From positions 1 through 43,458 of the forward strand of contig CAIUXE010000027.1 in assembly GCA_903902965.1 (NCBI GenBank): DNA of 43,458 nucleotides, read 5' to 3'. Under the pieces are notes generated by a model, which searched no databases, was not told the origin of the DNA, and saw only the letters and a list, made by a program, of their open reading frames with translations. Within the stretch, counting starts at the first letter, position 1, and each line of letters opens with the position of its first letter. Below are positions 29,984 through 43,458 of the stretch, one piece after another. The position numbers and the translations under genes were made by a program. Source of the stretch: an uncultured Actinomycetes bacterium (GTDB lineage: Bacteria; Actinomycetota; Actinomycetes; Nanopelagicales; Nanopelagicaceae).

Positions 29984-30058
29984 GGGTGGTTAGCTCAGTG
30001 GTAGAGCGTCTCGTTTACACCGAGAATGTCGGGGGTTCGAAACCCTCACCGCCCACCA
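29984..30058 (+). tRNA. tRNA-Val (anticodon TAC), CCA encoded
   Basis: Cloverleaf: acceptor GGGTGGT/ACCGCCC, anticodon stem TCTCG-TTTACAC-CGAGA, T-loop GGTTCGAAACC, encoded CCA. Confidence 0.96.
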
Positions 30059-32765: not shown

Positions 32766-33523
32766 AAAATACTGATCAAAATTTCTTAATAGGCAAGAAA
32801 GTTATGATCACAGGCGCGGCAAGTGGCATTGGCAAATCATGTGTAATTACGTTTGTTGAAGCAGGTGCTGATGTATTGGCCGTTGATTCAAATCCACAAA
32901 CCCTCGAGGAGTTAGCGAAAGAGATTAAGGTAACGACAAAAGTTGCTGATCTGAGTACTCCCGAAAAACACTTTCCAGATAATTTAGAGATTGATATTTT
33001 GATTAATAACGCAGGAGTTCAACATGTTGCACCGATCGAAGAATTCCCACTAGCACAAGCAGATTTAATGTTTTCGTTGATGTTGCGGACTCCGTTTTAT
33101 CTAACCCAAAAGGTTCTCCCACATATGTACGCCAAAAAATGGGGGAGAATCATTGGAATCTCAAGTATCCATGGCCATATCGCATCTCCTTACAAATCCA
33201 TATACACAACGGTTAAGCATGGACTTGAAGGCTTAACGAAAGTAACTGCACTTGAGGGTGGCCCGCATGGAGTTACCGCAAACACTATTGCCCCTTCATA
33301 TGCACGCACTGCTTTAGTTGAAAAGCAGATTAAATCGCAAGCAGATATAAATAACCTTTCTGAAGCACAGGTAGTTGATGAAATCATGTTGGCACCATCT
33401 GCGATAAAGCGCTTGATCGAACCAGAAGAGATAGCCCAACTCGCGCTGTACCTATGTGGTCCTTATTCAAATTCAATAAGTGGTTCCTCTTTTGGAATTG
33501 ATAATGGATGGACTGCTCGGTGA
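32762..33523 (+). CDS. SDR family oxidoreductase, 3-hydroxybutyrate dehydrogenase-like
   Basis: ITGAASGIGKSC, NNAGVQHVAPIEEFP, GISSIHGHIASPYKSIYTTVKHGLEGLTK. Confidence 0.88.
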   Translation: MKNTDQNFLIGKKVMITGAASGIGKSCVITFVEAGADVLAVDSNPQTLEELAKEIKVTTKVADLSTPEKHFPDNLEIDILINNAGVQHVAPIEEFPLAQADLMFSLMLRTPFYLTQKVLPHMYAKKWGRIIGISSIHGHIASPYKSIYTTVKHGLEGLTKVTALEGGPHGVTANTIAPSYARTALVEKQIKSQADINNLSEAQVVDEIMLAPSAIKRLIEPEEIAQLALYLCGPYSNSISGSSFGIDNGWTAR

Positions 33524-35421
33524 AAAGACCCACTTGGGTGCCAGGTGCAGATAGCGGTGTGGCACTAAAGAAGTTTTTTGAAATAGTTGAAGTCAAATAT
33601 CAGATAAAAGATTTAAGAGAATTACAACAGTGGTCTGTAGACCATTCAGATCAGTTTTGGTCTGAAGTTTGGGATTTCTTTGGGGTAATTGGAGAAAAAG
33701 GGGAACGCACTGAGATTCCAAGTAAATTACCCGAAGCAAATTATTTTCCTGATGCGAAGTTAAGCCATCTCGAAAACCTCTTATCTGGTGGCGGCGGAGT
33801 ATCTGTCGTTAAAGAAGCGGATATCGAAAATTTAGGCGAAACTCTGAGTCACAAAGAATTAGTGAATATGGTTTCAGCTTTAATTAACACTTTTAATAAA
33901 CAAGCAATTAGCGAATCTGATCGGGTAGTTGCAATTCTTCCGGTTGGAATAGAAGTATTAGTTACTACATTGGCTGGTTTTGGAGTCGGAGCAACAGTTG
34001 CTACCGCATCTCCAGAGTTTGGTGCCGATGCGATCCTGTCACGTTTTTCTCAACTCGAACCAACAGTCTTAGTCTTTAGCAATTCTTACCCTTGGCAAGG
34101 TAAAGAGTTAGATCGCAGTCAGATGGTGGCAGAAGTTGCGAAAGCTCTTCCCTCGCTTAAATTAATCATCGGATTAAGCGAAAACAATGAATTGTCAAAC
34201 GCAGTTTTATGGTCCGCCGCAACATCAGAATCCAAGGAAGCCAGTTTTGCAAAAAGAAATTTTGATCACCCTGCATATGTCTTGTTTACGTCAGGAACTA
34301 CTGGTGCGCCAAAAGGTTTATTGCATCGAAGCGGTGGGGTTTTGCTTAAGCATCTAGTGGAAATGAAATTACATTGTGATATCAAGGCTGGTGATCGTGT
34401 TTGTTTTTATACGACTACCGGTTGGATGATGTGGAATTGGGAGCTATCCGTTCTTGCCACGGGAGCAGATCTAGTTTTATTTGATGGAGCACCGACATTT
34501 CCAGATTCACTGCGCTTATTTCATTTTGCGCGAGAACAGAAATTAACTCACCTTGGACTTTCAGCTAGGTTATTAGATTTGATCCGCGAACAACACCCTG
34601 ATTTAAAAGTTTTAGGTGGCTTACCTGAATTGAGAGTCATTATGGTTACTGGCTCTCCACTTTCTCAAGTAACAGCGCAATGGTTGAGTGATCAATTTGA
34701 TGGCAAAGTTTTGATTTCTCCATTCTCGGGCGGAACAGATTTGGTCGGTTCATTTATGGGGCCAAACCCTTTGCTTCCTTATTTCGCAGGTCAGATGCAA
34801 GGCGCATTACTTGGCATGAATATTGATTGTTGGGATGAGGATGGGAATCCTTCTGAAGAGAATCAAGTGGGCGAATTAGTTTGTAAATCCCCATTCCCAA
34901 CAGTCCCTCTTGGTATTTGGAAAGATCAAGGCGGGCAACGTTTTAAAGATGCGTATTTTCATCGTTGGGAAAATATCTGGGTACATGGTGATTTAGTATC
35001 GCGTACACCAGAAGGCGGATATGTAGTTCATGGCAGATCTGATGCAACGCTAAATGTTGGTGGAGTTCGTATCGGCACAGGTGAGATTTATTCGGCACTT
35101 ACTTCACTGACTGATATTTCTGGAGCGCTTGCCTTCACTCAGCCATGGAATGGTGATGAGCGGATAGTCCTATTAGTTGTTGCTCCTAAAATTACAGATC
35201 AGGAAAGTTACATTAAACAAATCAGAACAGAAATTAGGAGTAATTGTTCTCCGCGGCACATGCCCGCAGAGGTCTTCTTTGTATCGGATTTACCAAGGAC
35301 TTTTAATGGAAAATTAGCGGAGGTGGCGGTCGCGGATCTAGCGCACAAGCGAAAGATTCGAAATCTGGGATCCCTCTCAAACCCCGATATTTTGCTAGAA
35401 ATCGGTCAATTTCTTCAATAA
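33520..35421 (+). CDS. Acetoacetate-CoA ligase (acetoacetyl-CoA synthetase)
   Basis: YVLFTSGTTGAPKGLLH, TTTGWMMWNW, SPFSGGTDLVGSF; GTG 33520 in GTGA overlap (ORF track start 33508). Confidence 0.92.
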   Translation: MKRPTWVPGADSGVALKKFFEIVEVKYQIKDLRELQQWSVDHSDQFWSEVWDFFGVIGEKGERTEIPSKLPEANYFPDAKLSHLENLLSGGGGVSVVKEADIENLGETLSHKELVNMVSALINTFNKQAISESDRVVAILPVGIEVLVTTLAGFGVGATVATASPEFGADAILSRFSQLEPTVLVFSNSYPWQGKELDRSQMVAEVAKALPSLKLIIGLSENNELSNAVLWSAATSESKEASFAKRNFDHPAYVLFTSGTTGAPKGLLHRSGGVLLKHLVEMKLHCDIKAGDRVCFYTTTGWMMWNWELSVLATGADLVLFDGAPTFPDSLRLFHFAREQKLTHLGLSARLLDLIREQHPDLKVLGGLPELRVIMVTGSPLSQVTAQWLSDQFDGKVLISPFSGGTDLVGSFMGPNPLLPYFAGQMQGALLGMNIDCWDEDGNPSEENQVGELVCKSPFPTVPLGIWKDQGGQRFKDAYFHRWENIWVHGDLVSRTPEGGYVVHGRSDATLNVGGVRIGTGEIYSALTSLTDISGALAFTQPWNGDERIVLLVVAPKITDQESYIKQIRTEIRSNCSPRHMPAEVFFVSDLPRTFNGKLAEVAVADLAHKRKIRNLGSLSNPDILLEIGQFLQ

Positions 35422-35426
35422 ATCCA

Positions 35427-35455
35427 TTGACGTGGACCTTTCCGGCACCTACCGT
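35427..35455 (+). promoter_or_regulatory. Candidate promoter of the GAF-LuxR regulator gene
   Basis: TTGACG - 17 bp - TACCGT, followed by SD CGGAGGGG and GTG start. Confidence 0.45.
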
Positions 35456-35478
35456 TCCCCTTACTCGGAGGGGTTAAA

Positions 35479-36357
35479 GTGCCAGATCACATAGCTTCTA
35501 ATGCTCAATTAGTGGGTCTGCGTGCAATAAAAGAATTTAACGAGGGTGTTGAGCCAGAAAATTTTTATCACACTTCTCATTTGCTCTGGATGATTGAATG
35601 GTTGAACAAATTGGGACATGGAGCCCCAGATTCTAGAATGTTACAAACCTTAATTTTAAGAAGCCCAAGTTATTTAGGGTTGCGAGCAATCTCAATTATG
35701 ATAATTGATGAAAATGATCAAGCTCGTCATTTTGCAGCACATGGATATCCAACCGAAGCAATAAAATTGCAAAATATTTATACTACTATCGAGGAAAAAT
35801 TGCCTTCAGTAGATGCAATGCTCACCGGCAAAGCAGTTTTCCTTGAATCAAGAAAAGAATTAGATTGCTATAGCAGTTATTTGCGTGCCTGGATTTCATA
35901 CATCCCTTGGATGAATTCACTAATGGCTTTCCCTCTCGTAAATCAAGAGCGCTTGAGTGGATCAGTAGTTTGGTCTTTTGATAACGATCACGCAATGGAT
36001 GACTTTGGTCGACAGTTATTTACTTCATTAAGTTTGATAGTTCAATCTATGATGTTTCAAGAGTTTGAGTCGAATAGAAATACAACTGGCTTAAGAGATG
36101 CCGGCAGAGTAGATAATTCGACCAATCTTCAGGAGTCGAATGATTTACAAAAGAAATTTCATATGTCAGATCGCCAGTTATCTATTGCAAAAATGATTGC
36201 TGATGGTTTAACAAATCGGGAAATTGCTAAGACTTTAAACTTTAGTGAATCAACTGCTCGTTATGAAACCATTAAAATATATGAAAGGCTGCAAGTAAAA
36301 AATAGGGCTCAAGCAGCGGCCATGGTTCGCTCGTTGTTTAGTATGTTGACAACCTAA
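35479..36357 (+). CDS. LuxR-type HTH transcriptional regulator with GAF-like N-terminal sensor domain
   Basis: C-terminal MSDRQLSIAKMIADGLTNREIAKTLNFSESTARYETIKIYERLQVKNRAQAA; N-terminal GAF-like region. Confidence 0.85.
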   Translation: MPDHIASNAQLVGLRAIKEFNEGVEPENFYHTSHLLWMIEWLNKLGHGAPDSRMLQTLILRSPSYLGLRAISIMIIDENDQARHFAAHGYPTEAIKLQNIYTTIEEKLPSVDAMLTGKAVFLESRKELDCYSSYLRAWISYIPWMNSLMAFPLVNQERLSGSVVWSFDNDHAMDDFGRQLFTSLSLIVQSMMFQEFESNRNTTGLRDAGRVDNSTNLQESNDLQKKFHMSDRQLSIAKMIADGLTNREIAKTLNFSESTARYETIKIYERLQVKNRAQAAAMVRSLFSMLTT

Positions 36358-36365
36358 TTTTTCAA

Positions 36366-37940
36366 CTAGAAACGAATAACCTTCCCCGCTAATTTCCCTG
36401 TGTGCAAGCCATCTTTAATGGCAAATTCACCATTTACAATAACGTGTGGAATTCCAATCGGATATTGTTGAGGTTGTTCATAAGTTGCTAAATCACGAAT
36501 TTCAAGTGGATTAAAGACCACCAAATCAGCTCTATTGCCAGCTTTAATAGTTCCACGATCTTTTATTCGAAGTTTATTTGCCGCTGCTTGTGTGGAAATA
36601 TGTATAGCTCTTTCAAGGGAGATGCCAGATGCACCCGTGTAACCGTTCAGCAATCTCGGGTAACAACCATACGAACGAGGATGTGGGCTTCCGCTTCCAG
36701 TTACGCCATTTGGATCTAAAGATTGTCCGTCGGATCCAACGATTGAACGCGGATGTGCATAAACAGATTTGACATCGCTTTCAGCGCGGCCAAATGCAAT
36801 TATCCCGAGAGCGTTGCCCATGTCGCCCAGCAAGTCCAGAGCAAGAATATCTGGCTCAATCGACAGCGATTCAGCTATATCTGAAATTTTTCGTCCAATT
36901 AAATCTTCTCTGCCAGATATTACGTTTGCAATTTGAATGTTAGACCAAATAACTTCACTTTCAATCCAATGAGAAATGATCTTTGTACGGGCAGATTTAT
37001 CTTTCATTCGATCCCGCATAACTGAATCTCCACCCTCTTGAGCCCAATATGGAAGAAGTTGGGTTAGGGGACAATTCCCAGCAATGTACGGGTAAACATC
37101 TGCATCCACTTCAAAGCCATCTTGATTTGCTTGGTCTAAAAGTTCTAATGCACGTGAGACAGAACCCCAATTGCGTTTTCCAAAAGTAACGAGATGAGAA
37201 ATTTGAGTCCGCACTCCAGTTGCTCTCGTGACGCTAAGCAACTCGTTCATAGATTTCATCAAGTCGTCCCCATACTCACGCATGTGACAAGCAAAAATTC
37301 CGTCAAATTCCTTTACAACAGTTGCAAGACCAATGAGTTCTTCCTGTGAAGCATATGAAACAGGGGAATAGTTCAATCCAGTTGAAAAACCAAATGCGCC
37401 GGCACTCATATTTTCCCGTAACAACTCTTGCATCTTTTTTATTTCTTGTGGAGTTGCTGGATCTTTTCCAAAACCAACTACAGAAGCATGAATTGGAATA
37501 TGTCCAACAAGAGTTGCAACATTTACTGAGGTCCCAGATTTCTCCAACACCTTTAGGTATCCCGCTAGGTCAGTCCAGTTCCATTTGATTTCTGGGTCCA
37601 AATCCAAATATGCCACCGCAGCTCGAAGAAGATCACTTGCTTCTCCAACTGGATTAGGTGCTACACCGAAACCGCAATTACCAATTACCTCAGTTGTAAT
37701 ACCTTGTCGAATTTTGCTTTGGGCAAGTGGATTAGAAAGCAAAGTTAAATCGGAATGAGTGTGAATATCTATAAAACCGGGAGCCAAGATGAGATTTGTT
37801 ATGTCAATAACTTCATCAGCACTTACATCAATATTGCCAACTTCGACGATCTGGCCCTCTTTAACAGCTACGTCAACTCTGGCTAAAGCCGAACCAGTTC
37901 CATCGGCAACTAGGCCACCTTTAAAGAGTTTTTGAATCAA
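36366..37940 (-). CDS. N-acyl-D-amino-acid deacylase (D-aminoacylase) family amidohydrolase
   Basis: APGFIDIHTHSDLTLLSNP, TEVIGNCGFGVAP, CHMREYGDD, GSDGQSLDPNGVTGSGSPHPRSYGCYPRLL. Confidence 0.9.
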   Translation of the reverse strand: MIQKLFKGGLVADGTGSALARVDVAVKEGQIVEVGNIDVSADEVIDITNLILAPGFIDIHTHSDLTLLSNPLAQSKIRQGITTEVIGNCGFGVAPNPVGEASDLLRAAVAYLDLDPEIKWNWTDLAGYLKVLEKSGTSVNVATLVGHIPIHASVVGFGKDPATPQEIKKMQELLRENMSAGAFGFSTGLNYSPVSYASQEELIGLATVVKEFDGIFACHMREYGDDLMKSMNELLSVTRATGVRTQISHLVTFGKRNWGSVSRALELLDQANQDGFEVDADVYPYIAGNCPLTQLLPYWAQEGGDSVMRDRMKDKSARTKIISHWIESEVIWSNIQIANVISGREDLIGRKISDIAESLSIEPDILALDLLGDMGNALGIIAFGRAESDVKSVYAHPRSIVGSDGQSLDPNGVTGSGSPHPRSYGCYPRLLNGYTGASGISLERAIHISTQAAANKLRIKDRGTIKAGNRADLVVFNPLEIRDLATYEQPQQYPIGIPHVIVNGEFAIKDGLHTGKLAGKVIRF

Positions 37941-38395
37941 CTCTTTATCCGGAAAATGGCATCCACTTCAACAGGGCTGTTCAGTGGCAAGGATTTCACG
38001 CCAATAGCGGTACGGGTATGAGATCCGCGCTCAGGGCCAAAAACATTCAAGATAACTTGGCTTGCGCCATGAGCTACAAGGTGTTGCTCTGAAAAATTAT
38101 CGGCGCTGGCCACGTAAATACCTAGACGTACTACGTACTCAATTTTATCTAGTGATCCAAGTTCTTTTTGAACCGATTCCAATACATTTACCGCGCATTG
38201 CCAAGCGCATTCTTGGGCTAGCTTCATATCTACTTCACGCCCAACAAGTCCAGTGGCGAGCATCGCGTCACCTCGTTTTGATACTTGACCGGAAGCATAA
38301 AAATTCTTCCCCATATATCTAATTGGAGCCAAAGTTATAGCGAATGGCGCATCAGGTGCCTGGCTCAAATTCTTCAACTTATCATCTGGGTTCAT
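37937..38395 (-). CDS. RidA family protein
   Basis: FYASGQVSKRGDAMLATGLVG...YVVRLGIYVASADNFSEQH...GSHTRTAIGVKSLPLNSPVEVDAIF; overlaps downstream gene by 4 bp. Confidence 0.88.
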   Translation of the reverse strand: MNPDDKLKNLSQAPDAPFAITLAPIRYMGKNFYASGQVSKRGDAMLATGLVGREVDMKLAQECAWQCAVNVLESVQKELGSLDKIEYVVRLGIYVASADNFSEQHLVAHGASQVILNVFGPERGSHTRTAIGVKSLPLNSPVEVDAIFRIKS

Positions 38396-38493
38396 TTCAA
38401 TTCTCCTGTCAAAAATAAATTTGCCTTGCGAGGAGTATGCCTGAAAATTTACGTCGATTCCAGAGTTTCAGGCGGTGATTAAGGATATTTTTA

Positions 38494-38528
38494 TTAGTAT
38501 TTTAGTTAGTATTAATTAGATATTTTAG
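38494..38528. repeat. AT-rich direct repeats in divergent intergenic region
   Basis: TTAGTATTTTAG (38494-38505) and TTAGATATTTTAG (38516-38528), with an additional TTAGTATT at 38506-38513. Confidence 0.7.
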
Positions 38529-38553
38529 AGTTTTAAATCTAGACAGAAAGATT

Positions 38554-38559
38554 TATGCT
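38554..38559 (+). promoter_or_regulatory. Candidate -10 element for a leaderless M20 transcript
   Basis: TATGCT followed by 6 nt and the ATG at 38566; no SD visible. Confidence 0.4.
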
Positions 38560-38565
38560 CTTGAA

Positions 38566-39720
38566 ATGGCAAATCCGATGCAAGTTAATCGCAAAAGTTT
38601 ATTAAGCCTGGCGAAAGATGTAATAAGTTACCAAACAGATCGAGATAACGAAGGTGCTCTCGCTCAGTATCTGGCAGATCGTCTTAGAAGTAATGGATTA
38701 CAGGTTCATGACGAAGATGTTGTCGCCGGTAGGCCAAATGTTATTGTCCGGGTCCCTGGCAGAGATTCTTCTCAACTTCCATTGGTAATAAATGCACATA
38801 TGGATGGTGCTTATCACTTAGGTGGCTGGTCACGAGATCCACTCGAAGGTTGGATTGAAGGAGATAAGTTATTTGGCGCTGCCGCTTCGGACATGAAAGG
38901 CGGTTTAGCTTCGATGGTTGCTGCTATCGAAAGTGCAGCTAAAGATAAATCATTACCAAGAGACATTATTTTGCACGCCGTTATGCACCACGACACTGTT
39001 GGATTGGGTGCTAAATATGTTTTAGCATCCGAAGGGCCATTTGAAGGTTTTGGAATTTGTGGAGAACCGACAAATATGGGGGTCGTTTATACGCACGGAG
39101 GGGCCGTAAAATTCAAGATAACCGTAACAGGCAAAGCATCACATATCTCCAGAATTGAAGATGGCGTTGATGCACTTAGTGCCGCCGTGGCAATTTATTC
39201 AAAAATTCCACAAATCAAATTGACACACAAAAATCATGAAGTACTTACTGATCTCCCTAGAGTATTAGTTGGAGTTTTGAATGGCGGAATTGCTGCAGGA
39301 TGTATTGCTCCCGAAGCGTCCATGTTGGGTGACGTGCGAACTCTTCCTGATATGACTCGTGAAACTGTTTACGATGATCTTAAAAAATTAGTAGACGAAT
39401 TTGCTGTCGATGGTTGCACTTATAAGATTAAATTAACAGCAGTACAAAAATCTTTCGTCGGGAAAAAAGAGAGTACATTAATGACAGCACTCAGTAATTC
39501 TTACAAAAAAGTCAGGGGAAGTGAAATAGAAGTAATCACAAAAATGCCTACACAGGCATTTGTTACAGACACCGCTGATATGTCAGCGATAGGACTTGAA
39601 GCATTGGTATTTGGACCAGGTGATTGGAAGTATTTGCCTGATGAGTTTATTTCTATAAAAGATATGGGTGATGCTGCCCAGATTTATTTAAATACTGCAT
39701 ACGAATTGCCGTTGAGATAA
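38566..39720 (+). CDS. M20-family metallopeptidase/deacylase-like protein with altered active-site motifs
   Basis: INAHMDGAYHLGGWSRDPLEG, AASDMKGGLASMVAAI, GICGEPTNMG, DTADMSAIGLEALVFGPGDW. Confidence 0.88.
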   Translation: MANPMQVNRKSLLSLAKDVISYQTDRDNEGALAQYLADRLRSNGLQVHDEDVVAGRPNVIVRVPGRDSSQLPLVINAHMDGAYHLGGWSRDPLEGWIEGDKLFGAAASDMKGGLASMVAAIESAAKDKSLPRDIILHAVMHHDTVGLGAKYVLASEGPFEGFGICGEPTNMGVVYTHGGAVKFKITVTGKASHISRIEDGVDALSAAVAIYSKIPQIKLTHKNHEVLTDLPRVLVGVLNGGIAAGCIAPEASMLGDVRTLPDMTRETVYDDLKKLVDEFAVDGCTYKIKLTAVQKSFVGKKESTLMTALSNSYKKVRGSEIEVITKMPTQAFVTDTADMSAIGLEALVFGPGDWKYLPDEFISIKDMGDAAQIYLNTAYELPLR

Positions 39721-39722
39721 AA

Positions 39723-41351
39723 ATGGTTATTGGATTTGTAAGTGATGAGATGTTCATCGCAATTGCAGATGCACAATTAGAGTTTAAGAAAATAACAGAT
39801 GGAACTCGAATTGAAGCGCGATCAAGTGCTTCAGGTGCAGTTAATCTTGATTTAGCGCCGGGTGAATATGAGGTAGCTCTTGCTCATCCAAATTTCGGGT
39901 CAAAAATTTCAAAAGTTAATATTTCTAGAAATATGGAGCCACATCAATTTCGATTAATGTCTAAGTCTTTAGTTGGTTACATCTGGCCTAAGTGGAGTCG
40001 GAGTGGCGACGTCGGTGAAATTCGATTTTCCGCTCATGAGCCAGTGGAAATTTCGCTATGGCGTTATGGATGGGAAAAAGAGTTCATTCGCGATATCGGC
40101 AGGTTCGCAGCTTCTGCCCCCTCTGGAGACTCCCAAACATTGCCCGATGGTGACATATCCAAAATTGGTGTGAAGTGGAACCACGAACGTTTTGATTATG
40201 CGCCTGATCTCGAGGCGTTAAGTGTTACTGCTCCAGAAAAAAGTGGTCTTTATTACTTTCACATGAAATCTTCCAGTGGCGAGACTTTTTCATTCCCTTG
40301 GATTGTTGCACCTGGGAAAAAGGTAAAAGAAAAAGAGATTGCAATTCTGACTTCCAATATTTGCTGGAATGCATATAACGATTGGGGTGGACGAAGTAAT
40401 TATGTTGCAGCAAATAAGCTGCCCGATGCGCCAACAGTTTCTCCAACCCAATCATCACCTTGGTTCAGACCAACAGGGGCGATTTGGTGGGTGGGAAATT
40501 CATTTGAGCCTTTATCTTTTGATCGGCCCGAACCAGTTAACAGCGAAGAACTTGAAAGCAAAATCACAGACCCAATTAAACGAATTGGTTCAGAGCATGT
40601 AGCTGCTGGAGAATGGCGATTGCTAGGTTGGATGGAAAAAGAAAAATACGAATATGACCTTTATTCCGAGAACCAATTTGATATTGGCGAATTAGATTTA
40701 GAAAAATACAAAGTTTTAATCCTGAGTACTCACCCTGAGTACTGGACGATAAACATGTATGAAAAATTAAAGGATTGGGTACAAAACAAGGGAGGAAAAC
40801 TACTTTACCTTGGCGGTAATGGCATCAACTGTAGTGTTGATCTAAATGATGATGAAATGACTGTTCACAATATGGACCTGTCAGATTGGTTGCCGCACAG
40901 GGCTTACAGCGGTGAAGGTGCATTAATTCCAAGCAGATTCGGTATTCGCCATGAAGTAGAGAGCTCTTTGTTAGGAGTTGTAATGAGCTTTGCCGGGATG
41001 GGCACTGGCGCACCATATGAAGTGATAGATGTTGATCATCCGATATTTACAAACACCAAATTAAAAAATGGAGATAAGTTTGGATTTAAATCTCTAGTCT
41101 CGCGTTGCCCAGGTGGTGCTTCCGGTCATGAAACCGATAAACGCGATTCAAATACTCCAGCTAGCACCAGATTGCATGCACGGGGATTAAATGGAGAGGG
41201 AGCCGGTGCCGAATTGGTAACTCTTGAAACTAACAGTGGCGGAGTAGTAATTAGCGTCGGATCTATCAATTGGACTGCATCTCTTCCTGTAGATGACCAA
41301 GTCGCATTAATCACCCGTAATGCACTGGAATTTGTATTAGGAAGACTTTAA
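39723..41351 (+). CDS. N,N-dimethylformamidase large (beta) subunit-like protein
   Basis: AILTSNICWNAYNDWGGRSNY, VLILSTHPEYWTINMYEKLKDWVQNKGGKLLYLGGNGINCSV resemble the DmfA2 C-terminal domain; N-terminal beta-sandwich-like region. Confidence 0.8.
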   Translation: MVIGFVSDEMFIAIADAQLEFKKITDGTRIEARSSASGAVNLDLAPGEYEVALAHPNFGSKISKVNISRNMEPHQFRLMSKSLVGYIWPKWSRSGDVGEIRFSAHEPVEISLWRYGWEKEFIRDIGRFAASAPSGDSQTLPDGDISKIGVKWNHERFDYAPDLEALSVTAPEKSGLYYFHMKSSSGETFSFPWIVAPGKKVKEKEIAILTSNICWNAYNDWGGRSNYVAANKLPDAPTVSPTQSSPWFRPTGAIWWVGNSFEPLSFDRPEPVNSEELESKITDPIKRIGSEHVAAGEWRLLGWMEKEKYEYDLYSENQFDIGELDLEKYKVLILSTHPEYWTINMYEKLKDWVQNKGGKLLYLGGNGINCSVDLNDDEMTVHNMDLSDWLPHRAYSGEGALIPSRFGIRHEVESSLLGVVMSFAGMGTGAPYEVIDVDHPIFTNTKLKNGDKFGFKSLVSRCPGGASGHETDKRDSNTPASTRLHARGLNGEGAGAELVTLETNSGGVVISVGSINWTASLPVDDQVALITRNALEFVLGRL

Positions 41352-41444
41352 GAGGTTGCAAAGCCTGAAATTTCGCATTTTAATTGAAAGTTTTATTGTT
41401 AAAAGTAGTAGCAAGTTTATTGGCCTTCATGTAAGACTGAGCCC

Positions 41445-42566
41445 ATGACATCATCCGCTGTTAAAGCCACCATTAAATCTATTCAAACTCTAAACGTTGA
41501 TCCAATTGTGCACCCATCTCTTGTTGTACAGGGATCGAGTGGAACACATGATCATTCTAATTTTCTAATTGTAAAAATCATCCTGTCCTCAGGCATCGAA
41601 GGAATTGGAGAAGTCAGCGGAACTCTTGGCTGGAGTGGAGAAGACAGCGGAACAGCCGAGCATGCAATCAGAACAGTGCTTATGCCAATTTTAATTGGCC
41701 AATCAATTTCACCAGTAGAGAACTTGCTTTCAAAAGTAGAGATTGCATTGGCGGCTAGCCCATTTACAAAAGCCGGTGTGGCAACCGCACTTTGGGATGC
41801 TTATGCCCGATCACTAGATATAACAATGGCAGATGCACTTGGCGGAGCAATTCGAACTGAGGTGCCAATTAAATTCTCATTAAGCGGTGACAAAGCAAGA
41901 ATTAAGCATGTGTATGAAGCTGCGACCAAAATGGGTTTCGGAGCATTTAAATTAAAAATTGGTAAAGATCCAGTCGATGACGGTGACCGTTTTGCATATG
42001 CCAGGCAACTTGTGGGCAAAGATACTTTCCTTGGAACCGATGCAAATACCGGCTACCGCAGATCTGAAGCGCGACTTGCTGTCTCGCTAATGAGAGAACA
42101 CAACCCAGCTTTTCTAGAGCAACCAGTAGCTGCTGGGGATTTGCAAGGAATGCACGAATTAAAAGAGTTGGGAATTCCAGTTGTTGCAGATGAGAGTGTT
42201 TTCACGCTAGATAACTTAGTTGCGGTACTTCGCGCAGAGGCAGCGGATGTTATAAGTATTTATGTAGGCAAGAGCGGCGGCCCTTCTCGAGCTGTGGAAA
42301 TGGGAAGAATTGCAGATGCATTTGGGTTGGATTCGGTAATCGGATCAAATGGTGAATGTGGTGTCGGAGCAGCAGCCCAACTTCAAGTTGCTTGCGCAAT
42401 GCCCGGATTATCTATGCGTTTTCCGTCTGACATCATCGGTGAGTATTACTACACCGCAGGAATTATTGAGACTCCGCTAAATAGTGACGGACGTGTCGTT
42501 CACTTGCCGGACGCTCCCGGACTTGGGGTCGTATTGAAGCCTGAACTAAACGCAAAATTCAAGTAA
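41445..42566 (+). CDS. Mandelate racemase/muconate lactonizing enzyme family protein (enolase superfamily)
   Basis: GAFKLKIGKDP KxK motif, GTDANTGY, AFLEQPV, VVADESVF, GKSGGP. Confidence 0.88.
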   Translation: MTSSAVKATIKSIQTLNVDPIVHPSLVVQGSSGTHDHSNFLIVKIILSSGIEGIGEVSGTLGWSGEDSGTAEHAIRTVLMPILIGQSISPVENLLSKVEIALAASPFTKAGVATALWDAYARSLDITMADALGGAIRTEVPIKFSLSGDKARIKHVYEAATKMGFGAFKLKIGKDPVDDGDRFAYARQLVGKDTFLGTDANTGYRRSEARLAVSLMREHNPAFLEQPVAAGDLQGMHELKELGIPVVADESVFTLDNLVAVLRAEAADVISIYVGKSGGPSRAVEMGRIADAFGLDSVIGSNGECGVGAAAQLQVACAMPGLSMRFPSDIIGEYYYTAGIIETPLNSDGRVVHLPDAPGLGVVLKPELNAKFK

Positions 42567-42627
42567 AAAGGTACTTGTTCATTTAGGTAACAAATTGTTT
42601 TAATACTATGAATACCAAGTACCTTTT
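42566..42627. repeat. 12-bp perfect inverted repeat (possible terminator or regulatory stem-loop)
   Basis: AAAAGGTACTTG (42566-42577) and CAAGTACCTTTT (42616-42627), with inner TTCAT/ATGAA extending the stem. Confidence 0.75.
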
Positions 42628-42781
42628 CACAACAGCACAAATATTAATACTTTGATCAATTATTTGGTCATTTTAGTGCTACCCCTAATCCAAATATTCG
42701 CATACCTTTCAGCAAACTTCATCAACAGGTAGCGCGGGTCGTCTTCGCTTCCTAAGTGAGCAATCCTCAAAGGGGGAATGT

Positions 42782-43458
42782 ATGCAAAGAGTTATCCGGA
42801 AAGGTTTAGCAGTCGGCCTAGCAGCGGCGTTAGCCTTAACCCTTTCTTCAATTTCGCCAGCTGGTGCAGCAACGAAGAAACCTGTTGCCAAACCTGCTGC
42901 AAAGAAACCTGCAGCTAAGCCTGCGGCAAAACCAGCAGCACCTGCAACCCCAACCGTGCTTCGTATGACGCGCATGGGTGACTGGTCAAATGCTTTCGGA
43001 CCAAGTCGAAATAGCTCTGGTACCGATCATCTTGTCAACTTTTTACTATTTAATAACTTAGTTAAAATCGCAAAAGATGAAAAAACTATTTTGCCTGATT
43101 TAGCAACTAAGTGGACAATCTCGAAAGATGCGAAGAAATTCACATTCGAACTTCGTAAAGGCGTCAAATTCAGCGATGGCTCAACATTTGATTCTGAAGA
43201 TGTTGCCGAAACAGTTGGTTTCAACTGTCGCATGAACGTTAAAAACTACATTGGTTACGCACCTGCATTGTGGGAAGCGGTAGATGGTTGTGCTGACTTA
43301 AACACTAAGCTCACCGGAGTGCCATCAGGCGTTAAAGTAATTGATGCTTACAATATTGAGATCAATCTTACAAAAGGAAATGCAGTTTGGTTAAGAGGAA
43401 TGACTGATGCTGTGTATTCAATCATTCCAAAAGAAGTTCACTCAGGACTAACATTCAA
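42782..43458 (+). CDS. ABC transporter substrate-binding protein, family 5 (peptide/nickel type), 3' truncated
   Basis: MQRVIRKGLAVGLAAALALTLSSISPAGAA signal, PDLATKWTISKDAKKFTFELRKGVKFSDGSTFDSEDVAETV; open to window end, absent from the ORF track because no stop is present. Confidence 0.92.
   Translation, partial: MQRVIRKGLAVGLAAALALTLSSISPAGAATKKPVAKPAAKKPAAKPAAKPAAPATPTVLRMTRMGDWSNAFGPSRNSSGTDHLVNFLLFNNLVKIAKDEKTILPDLATKWTISKDAKKFTFELRKGVKFSDGSTFDSEDVAETVGFNCRMNVKNYIGYAPALWEAVDGCADLNTKLTGVPSGVKVIDAYNIEINLTKGNAVWLRGMTDAVYSIIPKEVHSGLTF

Follow-up and report, generated by a model that had tools for sequence, protein, structure and literature searches.

A contig end of a freshwater actinobacterium carries part of a larger, rare, conserved gene cluster, a putative route for amide import and catabolism

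What do seven neighboring genes at the end of a contig from a freshwater actinobacterium do together? The window, meaning the whole stretch of DNA that was analyzed (43,458 nucleotides), is the complete contig C27 of MAG G000 (1.55 Mb, 210 contigs, 89% complete). The original prediction was that the genes beyond position 35427 form an uncharacterized catabolic island for amides or N-acyl-(D-)amino acids. We found that Pfam and profile matches support each of the seven families as it had been named, although the GAF domain of the regulator is supported only weakly (GAF_2, 23.7 bits, under the 28.6-bit cut-off). The genes, the control region, and the left boundary are as follows.

33508..35421, + strand: acetoacetate-CoA ligase (AACS; NF002937, 650.9 bits, cut-off 639), left boundary, outside the island count
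35479..36357, + strand: LuxR-type regulator (GerE, 45.8 bits; weak N-terminal GAF)
36366..37940, - strand: DAA, D-aminoacylase-fold amidohydrolase (Amidohydro_3, 89 bits)
37937..38395, - strand: RidA-family protein (Ribonuc_L-PSP, PF01042, 36.9 bits)
38396..38565, no strand: 170-bp control region separating the divergent RidA and M20 genes
38566..39720, + strand: variant M20 protein (Peptidase_M20, 57 bits; M20_dimer, 46 bits)
39723..41351, + strand: DMF, dimethylformamidase (DMFase)-like protein (DMFA2_C, 168 bits; N-terminal CarboxypepD_reg-like domain)
41445..42566, + strand: MLE, enolase-superfamily enzyme of the MLE subgroup (MR_MLE_C, 152 bits; MR_MLE_N, 53 bits)
42782..43456, + strand: SBP, SBP_bac_5 solute-binding protein (72 bits; frame open at the contig end)

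Because the window is an entire contig that stops within the SBP gene, the cluster was cut by the assembly. The ORF coordinates confirmed a 4-bp overlap between RidA and DAA (37937-37940) and a spacing of 2 bp between M20 and DMF. These genes had been read as two divergent operons around one control region. The divergence holds, whereas the count of two is a minimum, because 93 bp separate DMF from MLE and 215 bp separate MLE from SBP; from these gaps, SBP probably has its own promoter. The luxR gene is convergent with DAA and lies outside the shared control region, and LuxR is a candidate regulator of the island. The 170-bp region itself contains only short inverted repeats. To the left of 35427 lie a gene for a 3-hydroxybutyrate-dehydrogenase-like SDR and the acetoacetate-CoA ligase gene, with housekeeping genes beyond them, and the sole tRNA of the window, at 29984, is away from the island border. 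PADLOC returned no match.

A perfect 11-bp inverted repeat, AAAGGTACTTG (42567-42626), was considered as a control element and rejected because it is not conserved in G002, a genome of the same genus. Its copies are 38 nt apart directly behind MLE, and it also occurs in one contig of G003, another genome of this genus. The ~140 bp upstream of the SBP start codon (42640-42781) are near-identical in G000, G002, and G003 and are more conserved there than the DNA immediately preceding them.

We found that the contig end belongs to a larger set of about 20 genes that is rare and conserved. The original prediction had covered only a part of this cluster. The proposal to follow the contig rightward in search of ABC permeases was borne out, as permeases and ATPases were found in same-genus contigs and in Dactylosporangium. 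In G002 (L079), DMF-MLE-SBP is followed by two permeases and an ATPase, and SBP has a full length of 565 aa. By sequence, SBP would head a DppABCDF-type importer. The sister contig C39 of G000 carries, in order, a partial permease B gene, C, D, F, two tandem DMFase-like genes, AH2a (Amidohydro_2), a U32-like gene, a creatininase-like gene, an FmdA/AmdA-like gene, AH2b (Amidohydro_2), and a cut MLE gene. Beyond AH2b, G002 has the full gene cut in C39 (MLE2), an RraA-like protein gene, and a third enolase-superfamily gene. C39 and the relatives' copies therefore add two DMFase-like, one creatininase-like, one formamidase/acetamidase-like, two Amidohydro_2-like, one U32-like, two further enolase-superfamily, and one RraA-like gene. 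We infer that C27 and C39 are joined by the SBP and permease B genes; the ~1.6 kb in between, which would hold the remainder of SBP and the beginning of permease B, did not turn up in the assembly. The tandem DMFase-like genes of C39 (L076, 4821-8098) overlap and are sisters in the tree, far from the window copy.

DMF is present in three of the five genomes of the window's genus. Both G002 and G003 carry DMF-MLE, SBP-B-C, and sister clusters. G002 has two copies of the D gene that differ by 6%, which may reflect either a second copy of the transporter or a mixture of strains. LuxR adjoins AACS in G002 and is missing from that place in G004, and the DAA region matches G003 with 83% identical DNA. 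No DMF-like gene was found in G004 at the search threshold. There, homology to the window ends at 35433, and two genes of the C39/C25 type, one creatininase-like and one MLE-like, come next. This supports a single island site behind the acetoacetate-CoA ligase gene with variable content. At 496-2659 of its contig C104 (L107), G004 thus has a reduced island at the same site behind AACS, with only these two genes. One contig of G003 (C223; L109, 2-334) looks chimeric, with a PIG-L-deacetylase-like start fused in frame to an MLE end.

The original prediction would have fallen if the neighborhood were confined to one strain. Parts of it recur in two further MAGs of the genus and in Dactylosporangium sucinum, which belongs to another actinobacterial order. 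The D. sucinum contig (L001, NZ_BMPI01000046.1) carries the equivalent genes in one 16-kb cluster, in which MLE2 and M20 share a strand and the run SBP-B-C-D-F-DMF-AH2a-U32-like-creatininase-like-FmdA-like-AH2b-MLE occupies the opposite one. Protein identities range from 31 to 70% (AH2b, 70; MLE, 62; DMF, 61; M20, 58 [57.7]; FmdA-like, 57; U32-like, 56; creatininase-like, 54; ABC subunits, 43 to 50; AH2a, 40; SBP, 31). A class-III aminotransferase gene directly follows MLE on this contig, and one is also near MLE in another actinobacterial genus. We found no match to DAA, RidA, or LuxR in the D. sucinum cluster. This counts against their original inclusion as cluster members and suggests that they are possibly accessory genes outside the conserved core. 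Among 25 DMF homologues placed in a tree, the window and D. sucinum proteins form a fully supported pair, apart from Planctomycetota and from the two copies of C39. M20 was found at E < 1e-60 in only 1 of 251 sampled genomes of the Dactylosporangium family, that of D. sucinum. This makes it likely, on sequence distribution, that the cluster was transferred horizontally.

At the class level, DMF was detected at E < 1e-40 in 8 of 396 genomes, namely, the window's genome plus seven that all belong to one other genus. Those seven (L089 to L095) have a separate DMF-MLE-DppABCDF arrangement, which in L089 also includes DHDPS-family and class-III aminotransferase genes. DppABCDF also lies beside a DMF-like gene on a Haloferax plasmid and a Microvirga plasmid. 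On the former (Haloferax gibbonsii pHGLR3; L088, 10889-21126), which belongs to a haloarchaeon, the DMFase-like gene is annotated merely as a carboxypeptidase-like domain protein; its neighbors encode an ABC importer of the Dpp type, an M81 metallopeptidase, an aminotransferase, and TPP enzymes. In plasmid searches, the M20 query gave only 26 to 28% matches and the creatininase-like query gave none. Of the 12 genomes with a strong AH2b copy, 7 have a DMF-like gene no more than 10 kb away from it, against 0.05 expected from random placement; the count includes Dactylosporangium, and shared ancestry makes the probability only indicative. The DMF-AH2b pairing recurs outside Actinomycetota, in Planctomycetota and Gemmatimonadota, and an MFS transporter gene adjoins or is near DMF in five planctomycete loci. 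One planctomycete locus, L030 (DAA, M20, D-2-hydroxyacid dehydrogenase, DMF, MLE, and HpcH aldolase), was considered as an independent copy of the window set and rejected because its M20 is of another subfamily; the resemblance is suggestive at most. The U32-like gene was likewise rejected as a stand-alone marker, since many actinobacteria have homologues without the rest of the cluster.

The DMFA2_C domain of DMF scored 167.6 bits (curated cut-off, 27 bits). Its only sequence matches among solved structures were N-acetyl-(R)-β-phenylalanine acylase and dimethylformamidase, which are both amidases. These two also came first when the predicted DMF model was ranked by fold (Foldseek, E = 5.6e-19 and probability 1.00 to 6lve; next unrelated match, 6.5e-7). 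The model is of moderate confidence (pLDDT, 71.8; below 50 at 217-273). In Paracoccus DMFase, Tyr399 and Glu521 are iron ligands and His519 is nearby (PMC7686228). We found that Y218, H337, and E339 of DMF align with Y399, H519, and E521 and are invariant in 17 homologues. The second Tyr ligand of DMFase, Y440, falls in an alignment insertion or loop, where the pLDDT of the DMF model is below 50. DMF, flanked by gaps of 2 and 93 bp, has no small ORF for a partner subunit (~15 kDa) next to it.

DAA retains the metal residues H60, H62, C89, H219, and H249 and the catalytic residue D404. In the D-aminoacylase family, Lys254 and Ser291 (PpOngB numbering) are strictly conserved (PMC12017989); they hold the carboxylate and acetamide in all characterized relatives. 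In DAA, these anchors are replaced by V251 and N289. The M20 protein has both the catalytic and the dimerization domains (PF01546 and PF07687), and H78, D80, D109, D143, and E167 occupy the usual ligand positions. Two residues with known roles in DapE, the general-base Glu and the last metal His, are replaced in M20 by H142 (HHD for xEE) and Y356, respectively. The M20 protein of Dactylosporangium has the same HHD and Tyr substitutions, which are thus a conserved subfamily feature rather than a mutation. At least one of the "hydrolases," M20, may therefore be nonhydrolyzing, judging from the loss of the canonical base. A structure prediction for M20 from two sequences had a pLDDT of 39.5, too low for use. 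The catalytic set of MLE is complete (K169xK171, triad D199/E225/D249, and second Lys K276), and the protein fits no curated subfamily (197 bits versus the 335-bit cut-off of the best model). The changed residues of DAA and M20 weaken the assignment to N-acyl-D-amino acids, and we no longer favor that part of the original prediction. Its broader claim, an uncharacterized, conserved catabolic cluster with several amide-hydrolase families, was upheld.

We propose that the island is an uncharacterized import-and-catabolism route for an amide compound, possibly a cyclic amide (lactam), of which the window holds the left part; we put the probability of this at roughly 0.55. The amide or lactam reading follows from the combination of an importer, several amide-bond families, MLE enzymes, and an aldolase-like protein. 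The analysis showed the gene content, its conservation, the fold, and active sites that are conserved in part; from these we infer the order of steps, the class of chemistry, the direction of import, and regulation by LuxR. The DppABCDF-type ABC importer would bring the compound in, and amide hydrolases of several folds (Fe-type DMFase-like, creatininase-like, FmdA/AmdA-like, Amidohydro_2, and D-aminoacylase fold) would open and strip it. MLE-subgroup enzymes would then abstract the α-proton from the carboxylate product, leading to isomerization, racemization, or elimination. An RraA-type aldolase, perhaps with transamination, would deliver the product to central metabolism, and RidA would remove enamine or imine intermediates. 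Pfam names such as creatininase and formamidase are no proof of amide substrates, and FmdA-like and Amidohydro_2 proteins include nonamidases. The enzyme families are known, and their active sites are partly altered.

Known chemistry might account for the locus, as scavenging of N-acyl-D/L-amino acids or dipeptides behind a dipeptide importer, with a D-aminoacylase, an MLE acting as N-acylamino acid racemase or dipeptide epimerase, and an M20 deacylase. Such a two-enzyme route of racemase and deacylase is established in the N-succinylamino acid racemase pathway. The family names and the Dpp-type importer fit, and MLE resembles the L-Ala-D/L-Glu epimerase 1jpm (E = 8e-38). We nonetheless consider scavenging improbable. 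DAA and M20 lack the residues named above, and MLE, far under its subfamily cut-off, aligns as Pro-Ser-Asp where dipeptide epimerases have Asp-x-Asp on the eighth strand. The creatininase-, FmdA-, and DMFase-like genes would also be left unexplained. A narrower reading, that DAA-RidA is an ong-like module for oxidized amino sugars unrelated to the remainder, seems very improbable to us. Among solved structures, PpOngB (9kb1, E = 1e-69) is the closest to DAA, and the deacetylase OngB and the RidA protein OngD of the ong cluster share one operon and are both required for growth on GlcNAc1A (PMC9537276). However, the margin of PpOngB over D-aminoacylases is ~3 bits, the anchors that OngB shares with D-aminoacylases are replaced, and position 298 is apparently Leu rather than the Gln of OngB. 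No OngC-like deaminase, KdgK (KDG kinase), or hexosaminidase was found in the island, and neither OngC nor KdgK was among the scanned genes of the window or sister contig.

The seven genes could also belong to two independent modules that are merely neighbors, LuxR/DAA/RidA on the left and the conserved M20-DMF-MLE-ABC cluster on the right, a division that we hold to be doubtful, with the odds clearly against it. It would explain why the first three genes have no match in the Dactylosporangium cluster, and the 170-bp region could carry separate promoters. Against it, LuxR (in G002) and DAA (in G003) occur in genomes that both carry the DMF cluster, and two planctomycete loci (L027 and L030) have a DAA-family gene no more than 10 kb from DMF, although the family may be common there. 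That the island is an assembly artifact or MAG contamination is scarcely credible. The MAG is fragmented and one G003 contig looks chimeric, yet in G002, too, the left-side synteny continues into the island at 35427, GC is 0.42 on either side of the border, and a cultured strain has the same genes grouped on one contig (L001).

If the island is an amide or lactam route, a large dedicated set of genes in a freshwater actinobacterium with a small genome, which a cultured actinomycete of another order also has but which is otherwise sparsely distributed, would point to a real, unrecognized environmental amide. The large, nearly uncharacterized DMFase-like family, with its many Planctomycetota copies, would gain a role beyond solvent breakdown. 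We advance more tentatively, with odds below even, the idea of a new, horizontally moving pathway in which a DMFase-type iron amidase, a rewired M20 protein, and MLE enzymes successively process a natural lactam or amide, taken up by the importer, for which no pathway has been described. In the literature, we found no described pathway joining dimethylformamidase with creatininase or with the wider cluster set. The pathway is directly testable, because the Dactylosporangium contig derives from strain JCM 19831.

Compared with known systems, M20 shares with DapE/ArgE-type deacylases the two-domain architecture with its dimerization domain and His78, Asp109, and Glu167, and differs from them, as does its Dactylosporangium counterpart, in the lost base and in the Tyr for the last His. 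MLE keeps the KxK motif, the Asp/Glu/Asp triad, and the second Lys of the muconate/chloromuconate cycloisomerase-like MLE subgroup but, by score, lies outside the subfamily. DAA has the fold and metal ligands of D-aminoacylase, N-acyl-D-glutamate deacylase, and OngB, and it differs from all three in its anchors. As in the ong system for oxidized chitin (PMC9537276), a D-aminoacylase-like enzyme and RidA share an operon in a catabolic setting; in place of OngC, KdgK, and OngA, the island has an ABC importer and many other amidases. DMF resembles DMFase (Paracoccus DmfA2, 6lvb) and N-acetyl-(R)-β-phenylalanine acylase (8huy) in its DMFA2_C domain, its fold, and the Tyr399/His519/Glu521 set of the mononuclear iron site. 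It differs in being ~540 aa long rather than ~770, in having no adjoining small-subunit gene, in its N-terminal CarboxypepD_reg-like domain, and in its linkage to AH2/MLE genes and an ABC importer.
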